A stretch of DNA of 47,467 nt, taken from positions 1 through 47,467 of the forward strand of contig JAPUIX010000178.1 in assembly GCA_027296625.1 (NCBI GenBank), written 5' to 3'. This document shows positions 36,418-37,947 of the stretch, in pieces. Position 1 is the first letter of the stretch. The number at the start of each line of letters is the position of its first letter. The translations under genes were made by a program, and so were the position numbers. Origin of the DNA: Gammaproteobacteria bacterium (GTDB lineage Bacteria > Pseudomonadota > Gammaproteobacteria > JAKEHO01). Below the pieces are notes generated by a model that was given only the letters and a program-made list of their open reading frames with translations, searched no databases and was not told the DNA's origin.

Positions 36418-37062
36418 ATGGGCACTCACAGCCGATCGTTAGCCCTTAGCCTATCGCTGCTGCTGGCAATCGCTTCGGCTCCGCTGGGCGCCGGAGAGGG
36501 CAATGATGTGCTTGAGACGGTCAGCGAAGAGTACCCGATCCCACATCATGGCGTACTCACGCTGGATGTTCCCGTCCCCTGGCAGGCCGTGTTTTACCAG
36601 CCTCTATATAAGCAGTTTCCTTCGATCACGTTTTCTCCGCTTAAATCGAAAAGCTTCCAATTGTTCGTCACGGTCTTTTGGAACACGGCTTATGACGGCG
36701 ATCTCAGCCATCCAGAGTCAATCAGACAACTGGTCGAGCGGGTCGGCGAGGAGGCCCTTGTTCACTCCGATGAAGAGGAATTGATGCTAAAGCCGATCGA
36801 AGGAACGGACCTGCCAGGCTATCTCTTTGACTTGTCTGATGAATCAGCACCAGAAGGGGACTACAAGTACCTTACTCAGGGTGCCATCGGTGTTGATGAC
36901 TTGGTTTTGACCTTCACGCTGCTCGCCCACGAGCGTGATTCCCGTGAGCGCGAGGCGGCCCTGGAGATGCTAAAGAGCGCTCGCCAGAGAGAGTATCGCC
37001 AGGACGTGCGTGCGTCTTTACCATTGACTACGGCAAGCATCGCAGGCAACAGCCCGGATTAA
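36418..37062 (+). CDS. Secreted/periplasmic protein of unknown function
   Basis: A 214-residue protein with a clear signal peptide (residues 1-25, LALSLSLLLAIASAPLGAG). I do not recognise a family. The mature part has aromatic and beta-rich stretches (VLTLDVPVPWQAVFYQPLYKQFPSITFSPLKSKSFQLFVTVFW) and a helical C-terminal third (ERDSREREAALEMLKSARQREYR). The GGAG site and ATG at 36418 are convincing. The next gene downstream is msrB, 471 bases away with the sRNA candidate between. A lone envelope protein, perhaps stress-related; nothing stronger can be said. Confidence 0.8.
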   Translation: MGTHSRSLALSLSLLLAIASAPLGAGEGNDVLETVSEEYPIPHHGVLTLDVPVPWQAVFYQPLYKQFPSITFSPLKSKSFQLFVTVFWNTAYDGDLSHPESIRQLVERVGEEALVHSDEEELMLKPIEGTDLPGYLFDLSDESAPEGDYKYLTQGAIGVDDLVLTFTLLAHERDSREREAALEMLKSARQREYRQDVRASLPLTTASIAGNSPD

Positions 37063-37141
37063 GAGATCGACGCTTCTATAAGGGCTAACTACCAGCCGAA
37101 TAGGCTGTGTTAGAAGCACTTCCCAGAGAAATTTCTTGATT

Positions 37142-37157
37142 TGTGACGTGCGTCATG
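37142..37157. promoter_or_regulatory. Weak CRP-like site
   Basis: TGTGACGTGCGTCATG has TGTGA-N6-TCAtg. It lies 53 bases (about five helical turns) upstream of the stronger site and shares its face of the helix. Confidence 0.4.
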
Positions 37158-37194
37158 AATCAGTAAGGTCATTAACGAGATGGAATTTTGTTTT

Positions 37195-37210
37195 TGTGAT
37201 TTGATTCACA
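37195..37210. promoter_or_regulatory. CRP-like site
   Basis: TGTGATTTGATTCACA is an exact TGTGA-N6-TCACA, the CRP core consensus. Its centre (37202.5) is 41.5 bases from the predicted RNA start, the class II CRP geometry. Confidence 0.65.
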
Positions 37211-37231
37211 GTATTCAGATCCGATCTTTAT

Positions 37232-37237
37232 TAATAT
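37232..37237 (+). promoter_or_regulatory. -10 element of sRNA promoter
   Basis: TAATAT is a fair -10 hexamer. With a start at about 37244 it places the CRP-like site at -41.5. The -35 region is overlapped by that site, as expected for an activator-dependent promoter. Confidence 0.5.
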
Positions 37238-37243
37238 TGTAAC

Positions 37244-37333
37244 CGCTCATCATAACCTCCCATGATGATCTTATTGCTCGGTACTTGCTCTTACCCTCCT
37301 CCTCCCACCTAGAGCAGTACCGGGCACTTTTTT
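37244..37333 (+). ncRNA. Candidate small RNA with two C-rich anti-Shine-Dalgarno loops
   Basis: About 90 bases. Hairpin 1 (TCATCAT 37247-37253 with ATGATGA 37262-37268) has a perfect 7-bp stem and the loop AACCTCCC. Hairpin 2 (37275-37291 with 37311-37326) has a 16-bp stem with one bulged T and one G-U pair, and its 19-base loop contains CCCTCCTCCTCCCACC. It is followed by six Ts. Both loops can pair with Shine-Dalgarno sequences. Alphaproteobacterial cuckoo/CcsR RNAs and Xanthomonas sX13 use similar loops. No open reading frame explains the sequence. Confidence 0.65.
37275..37333 (+). terminator. Terminator hairpin of the sRNA
   Basis: The strong stem at 37275-37291/37311-37326 followed by T37328-T37333 is a Rho-independent terminator and also the second C-rich loop of the RNA. 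Confidence 0.8.
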
Positions 37334-37533
37334 ACCCCGAGATCCTCGGCCCCCACAGGCCCAGCCGCGATGAAATCCCTTGCCGCCTTTGCTGAGTCCT
37401 CGCGGCCGTGTGCTCGCCTCATTGGGTTTGTGCTTGTCTGAGCTAGGCTCGAAACACTCGAGTGCGCTATGATGTGGGAAATTCCGTCTAAGTCAGCACA
37501 GAGATCTAGACGACTCAGCAGTTTGAACGTGTC

Positions 37534-37947
37534 GTGGACGATAAACATAATCGATTAGATGAGGAGTGGCGGCAGTTGCTGTCGCCTGAGGCGTACGCCG
37601 TCTGTAGGAAAAAAGGGACAGAACGGCCCTTTAGCGGCAAATATCACGATTGCAAGGAAGAGGGTGTTTACCTATGTGTCTGTTGTGGCACGGCGTTGTT
37701 CCACTCCGAGACTAAGTTTGATTCGGGGACAGGTTGGCCAAGCTTCTCGGCACCGATCGCTGAAGAAAACATCAGCGCGAAATCAGACAATAGCGATGGT
37801 ATGCGTCGTATCGAGGTGCTCTGTCGGACCTGTGATGCCCATCTTGGTCACGTGTTCGACGATGGCCCAGCACCCGCAAATCAGCGTTACTGTGTTAACT
37901 CTGTCGCACTAGCGTTTGAGAAAAAAAGCGATCAATCAAAAAGCTAG
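37534..37947 (+). CDS. msrB: Peptide-methionine (R)-S-oxide reductase
   Basis: A 137-residue methionine-R-sulfoxide reductase that repairs oxidised methionine in proteins. The structural zinc is held by Cys48/Cys51 (LCVCCG) and Cys97/Cys100 (LCRTCD). GTGWPSF and HLGHVFDDGP are the MsrB signatures. The catalytic Cys120 is in RYCVNSVAL. A resolving Cys near residue 63 in some relatives is replaced here, so a thioredoxin-independent or single-Cys mechanism is possible. It starts with GTG at 37534 without a good ribosome site. It has no signal peptide and is cytoplasmic. Confidence 0.95.
   Translation: MDDKHNRLDEEWRQLLSPEAYAVCRKKGTERPFSGKYHDCKEEGVYLCVCCGTALFHSETKFDSGTGWPSFSAPIAEENISAKSDNSDGMRRIEVLCRTCDAHLGHVFDDGPAPANQRYCVNSVALAFEKKSDQSKS

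Follow-up and report, generated by a model that had tools for sequence, protein, structure and literature searches.

A predicted CRP-controlled small RNA with two C-rich loops in a gammaproteobacterial genome and its relatives

The RNA gene, its promoter and the sister genome

The window (the whole 47,467-nt stretch of DNA analysed here) contains a predicted small RNA gene downstream of a protein gene without Pfam match (36418-37062). On the same strand, msrB (37534-37947; PF01641) is located about 200 nt downstream of the RNA. The RNA and its promoter comprise the following features:

37142..37157, plus strand: distal CRP-like site TGTGACGTGCGTCATG, centre at about -94.5, two mismatches to TGTGA-N6-TCACA
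37195..37210, plus strand: proximal CRP site TGTGATTTGATTCACA, a perfect palindrome; its centre, 37202.5, is at -41.5, the class II position
37232..37237, plus strand: -10 element TAATAT (TAGACT in the sister genome and most commonly in the family)
37244..37333, plus strand: predicted small RNA of ~90 nt, start from promoter geometry (37241-37245), end at the U run
37247..37268, plus strand: hairpin SL1, 7-bp stem and 8-nt loop AACCUCCC (37254-37261), from folding and covariation
37269..37274, plus strand: A/U-rich linker UCUUAU between SL1 and terminator, a candidate Hfq contact
37275..37333, plus strand: intrinsic terminator, 16-bp stem and U run (37328-37333), from folding and covariation

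The proximal site is the only perfect TGTGA-N6-TCACA palindrome in the window. Its centre lies 29 nt before the -10 element and, with +1 at 37244, this spacing places it at -41.5. The promoter consists of the CRP site and a sigma70-type -10 element, and a GGAACTT element is absent. The distal site, located 53 bp upstream of the proximal one, is weaker; it is also where the region delimited in a first-pass annotation of this DNA begins (37142).

The RNA (37244-37333) folds with -31.1 kcal/mol, compared to -12.1 +/- 2.4 kcal/mol for shuffled sequences (z = -7.84), and none of the 200 shuffled sequences folded as well. In the terminator hairpin (37275-37326), a 16-bp stem with a bulge of one base carries a 19-nt C-rich loop UACCCUCCUCCUCCCACCU (37292-37310); a generic terminator scanner did not detect this hairpin because the loop limit of the scanner is 8 nt. 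Both loops carry sequences resembling the anti-Shine-Dalgarno (anti-SD) sequence, ACCUCCC in SL1, the loop of which is the complement of GGGAGGUU, and CCCUCCUCC in the terminator loop. No plausible protein covers 37244-37333; a minus-strand ORF of 79 codons (37309-37548), most likely spurious, touches only the terminator end of the RNA. Thus the perfect CRP site centred at -41.5, the TAATAT element, the 7-bp hairpin and the 16-bp terminator reported in the first-pass annotation are all present in the sequence, and both the fold and the lack of a credible overlapping gene agree with its proposal of a ~90-nt RNA in a protein-free region.

Among 94 related genomes compared, a long match was obtained only from a genome of the same genus (JAKEHO010000082.1, Gammaproteobacteria bacterium isolate PMV_7.24), referred to here as the sister genome. 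The RNA is identical at 86 of 90 positions (95.6%), the proximal CRP block at 19 of 23 and the distal CRP block (37140-37160) at 18 of 21. Identity is 15 of 31 in the DNA between the two CRP sites, 40 of 77 (52%) in the 77 nt upstream and 74-80% in the coding neighbours. The distal site of the sister genome reads TGTGAATTGCATCATG and its 53-bp spacing is unchanged. Within the RNA, the two genomes differ in the linker, in one additional 3-nt repeat gained by the terminator loop of the sister genome, and in two bases just ahead of the U run. At the sequence level, this pattern of conservation fits selection on the RNA and its promoter. The counterpart of the upstream protein gene (L002 1805-2370, minus strand) carries an in-frame stop and gaps in the sister genome and appears to be broken or decaying, next to an RNA that has hardly changed.

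Relatives in six families and covariation of the stems

A first covariance model, built on the RNAs of the window and the sister genome, revealed four convincing distant loci (L042-L045) in 369 genomes of the class. Matches L046-L051 of the same model were dropped, as each lacked the terminator U run, the CRP site or the C-rich loops. Iterated models (R2 and R3), followed by searches within the orders of the first-model matches, brought the RNA family to 38 loci in six families (f1, f66, f91, f119, f133 and f140). In the order of f119, model matches were found in 28 of 53 genomes and 15 of 18 genera, and 25 of the matching genomes contribute individually inspected loci. The models were seeded with the C-rich loops and loop conservation in the distant matches is therefore partly by construction. 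When the genome collection was scanned by pattern for the two exact loops, the sister genome was the only true match and eight others were chance occurrences.

The CRP site was not part of the covariance models. At 34 of the 38 loci a TANNNT hexamer, of which TAGACT is the most frequent form, is preceded at a distance of exactly 29 nt by a CRP palindrome with at most one mismatch. In the background (854,930 positions of other loci) there are 24 such palindromes, none of which has TANNNT at that spacing. The predicted site of a class II/III CRP promoter, centred at -41.5, is thus present at these 34 loci, and activation by CRP would be expected from its position. The CRP site lies 18 bp further up (-59.5) at L042 and L103 and is shifted by 1 bp at L109; counting these three, 37 of the 38 loci have a CRP site, L043 being the one without. 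In most relatives a second CRP-like site (0-2 mismatches) is found 5' of the proximal one, mostly 39-53 bp upstream. Its distances cluster near 41 and 50 bp, which would correspond to about four or five helical turns.

In an alignment of 40 copies fitted to the model, compensating changes occur in 22 of 23 base pairs, i.e., in all seven pairs of the SL1 model helix and in 15 of the 16 model pairs of the terminator. Altogether 87.4% of the cells of this alignment pair. Its covariation score, 0.604, compares with 0.204 in shuffles and 0.076-0.117 for slid partners. Folding of single sequences, which is free of any alignment, placed a C-rich loop in the main hairpin of 39 of the 40 copies and in the 5' hairpin of 26. 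From a sequence-only MAFFT alignment, which misregistered the stems, RNAalifold recovered five pairs in the upper terminator stem, all five compensated. The covariance search suggested in the first-pass annotation has accordingly produced the compensating stem changes it was meant to look for, within a model-fitted alignment.

Several RNAs stand at the margin of this set. At two loci the RNA is followed in tandem, about 220 nt downstream, by a diverged second copy (L113:1728-1821 and L119:1720-1811), which has no CRP site in the class II position. L059 and L100 come from two other families and were left out of the 38 loci as uncertain; both are C-rich-loop RNAs that follow purB-like genes and have CRP-like sites, and judging from their sequences they are possibly a further CRP-linked group. 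L052 and L137 were also left out: they represent a C-rich two-hairpin RNA of f64, preceded by an AT-rich stretch containing TTGAC but no CRP site.

Putative function and comparison with known RNAs

No Rfam family matched the window at gathering score. At E values up to 10 only chance matches of snoRNA type were obtained around the RNA, and its relatives also gave chance matches only. The RNA family is uncatalogued, being outside Rfam 15 and not described in the papers searched. Similarly, no CRP-controlled C-rich small RNA near msrB or outside the enterics was found in the literature accessible to us, subscription papers being mostly beyond reach. Alphaproteobacterial cuckoo/CcsR RNAs also have C-rich loops. 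They and sX13 had been named in the first-pass annotation as RNAs with similar loops to be compared through Rfam, a comparison that produced no family match for the window RNA and, for cuckoo/CcsR, chance matches only at E up to 10.

The genome of the window encodes a CRP/Vfr orthologue, which is 54% identical to Escherichia coli CRP, has the recognition helix CSREMVGR and finds its best PDB match in Pseudomonas aeruginosa Vfr. An Hfq orthologue is encoded as well, and the RNA has a U tail. The nearest working analogue, as judged by comparison, is CyaR (RyeE) of Enterobacterales, a CRP-activated RNA of about 87 nt with its own terminator. The C-rich segments of CyaR are CCACCUCCUU and the terminator loop UCUCCC, and it binds the Shine-Dalgarno (SD) region of ompX (PMC11795201). 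The promoter geometry is the same: E. coli cyaR has a CRP site with two mismatches exactly 29 nt before the -10 element TATCAT, so that in both cases the predicted site is near -41.5. However, the main C-rich segment of CyaR is between the hairpins and not in the SL1 loop, and the gene neighbours yegQ and yegR differ from those of the window RNA. Model R3 did not match the E. coli cyaR region even at E = 10, and the CyaR model RF00112 matched neither the window nor the relatives. By analogy, the RNA most likely works like CyaR while not being detectably homologous to it.

The structural likeness to sX13 of Xanthomonadaceae, a compact RNA with apical C-rich loops, holds, although the sX13 covariance model (RF02232) does not match the window RNA. 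sX13 has three hairpins with 4C/5C loops and resides at the polA locus; the window RNA has two hairpins. sX13 base-pairs through its loops with G-rich motifs that lie close to the start codons of mRNAs, and it is Hfq-independent (PMC3771888). The first-pass annotation was therefore right about the structural resemblance, but CyaR, the nearest working analogue, was not among the RNAs it named.

From the CRP and Hfq orthologues, the spacing shared with CyaR and the loops shared with sX13, we infer that the RNA is made at high cAMP, may depend on Hfq and represses messages with G-rich ribosome-binding sites. With a probability of roughly 0.8, on the grounds of sequence and analogy, it is a trans-acting small RNA, activated by CRP-cAMP and probably associated with Hfq, that pairs with SD regions and thereby blocks translation. 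At high cAMP, the Vfr/CRP orthologue would bind at -41.5, probably helped by a second CRP dimer about 4-5 helical turns upstream. The bound CRP would recruit RNA polymerase to the TANNNT -10 element, a layout read from sequence and conservation. The resulting ~90-nt RNA is predicted to end at its own intrinsic terminator and, according to folding and covariation, to expose an anti-SD-like sequence single-stranded in both loops. As in CyaR and sX13, the loops could then pair with G-rich SD regions in a subset of mRNAs and prevent the initiation of translation, so that expression of the targets would be lowered at poor carbon or energy state. Repression of many messages at once is plausible by the same analogy.

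Putative targets were searched for with the motif GGGAGGT-N4-10-ATG, and the reversed motif served as a control. The motif was found at 26 places compared to 17 for the control in the genome of the window, and at 24 compared to 15 in the sister genome. In two relatives it was 4-6 times commoner than the control (64 compared to 15 in G331 and 43 compared to 7 in G212). When the ORFs that follow the motif were compared between the window genome (19 places) and the sister genome (20 places), a single pair was shared, which is apparently not a real gene start. Since this motif search found no conserved mRNA targets and C-rich loops are able to pair with any G-rich RNA, the RNA could instead be a sponge or decoy, the loops of which bind G-rich small RNAs or another factor. 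We consider this improbable, as the sequence of the loops is that of the anti-SD core and the targets of the two best-studied analogues are SD or G-rich sites in mRNAs, namely the G-rich motifs recognised by sX13 (PMC3771888) and, for CyaR, ompX (PMC11795201).

It is also quite improbable that the RNA is a member of the ErsA/Pseudomon-1 (RF01719), anti-hemB (RF02837) or sX13 families. ErsA and anti-hemB have C-rich loops of the same kind and a similar terminator, and the models of the new family pick up such RNAs as well. Indeed, many of the weaker covariance matches have no CRP site; they show a sigmaE-like element of the GGAACTT type and one more hairpin at the 5' end. Several of these match RF02837 (up to 42.4 bits; gathering 49.5), RF01719 or RF02232, always below gathering. 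The window RNA and its true relatives, however, match none of these Rfam models, and the window RNA has neither a covariance match to ErsA/anti-hemB nor a sigmaE/AlgU-type promoter. Moreover, the genome of the window has a separate RNA of that kind:

G000:C183:20253-20340, plus strand: second C-rich-loop RNA (L096), sigmaE-like GGAACTT element; RF02837 at 32.8 bits (gathering 49.5)

The sigmaE-like RNAs serve as a negative control for the CRP promoter finding, and by its sequence features the window RNA is placed in a group distinct from the ErsA/anti-hemB/sX13-like RNAs.

Gene neighbourhood and significance

The position of the RNA is syntenic within groups; some of the neighbouring gene names rest on recognised conserved sequence motifs. 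In f91 the order is ROK kinase, RNA, convergent response regulator and msrB, and f66 has the same order with msrB not in view. The RNA is found between ispG and phhB-cysG in f133 and is followed by (msrB), phhB and cysG in f1. In f140 the order is Kef-type antiporter, RNA, lexA and msrB, and in f119 a Kef-type antiporter or ketosynthase-like gene precedes the RNA, which is followed by varied genes. The overlapping gene contexts support common descent of the RNAs, and the downstream genes, being varied and often convergent, indicate that the RNA is an autonomous transcription unit.

In the window msrB is located between the RNA and phhB. It is absent from the corresponding stretch of the sister genome (L002 1334-1509), in which phhB is the next gene; the difference is an insertion or a loss within one genus. 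That the RNA is a cis-acting 5' leader or attenuator of msrB (methionine sulfoxide reductase B), as its distance to msrB on the same strand might suggest, is extremely improbable and is rejected by synteny, since RNA and promoter are conserved in the sister genome without msrB and in relatives the RNA is followed by convergent genes (for a response regulator, LexA or a protein kinase) or by an unrelated one (phhB). The description of the RNA as residing at an msrB locus therefore applies to the window, and msrB is a recurrent neighbour; it is not a constant one, being missing at the locus in many relatives too.

The central proposal of the first-pass annotation, that a compact small RNA with two C-rich loops is expressed from a class II CRP promoter, gains strong support from the footprint in the sister genome, the promoter geometry in six families, the compensating changes and the CRP and Hfq orthologues. 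The RNA is most likely a real, conserved small RNA gene of a known kind, i.e., CRP-controlled, with anti-SD loops and, by analogy, CyaR-like in function.

To our knowledge, CRP-driven small RNAs have been studied in detail mainly in enterics. The chances are about even that the uncatalogued family is ancient in Gammaproteobacteria outside the enterics and fills the role of CyaR there, with an ErsA-type anti-SD RNA under sigmaE control working separately beside it. If so, carbon state and envelope stress would both act on one class of ribosome-binding sites. In practice, C-rich-loop covariance matches need to be split by promoter type (CRP or sigmaE-like) before they are given one family label. 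For experiments outside the enterics, the family provides a defined model together with coordinates and relatives. With a class II CRP promoter that hardly varies across six families other than the enterics, the coupling of cAMP-CRP to anti-SD small RNAs would be both general and old.
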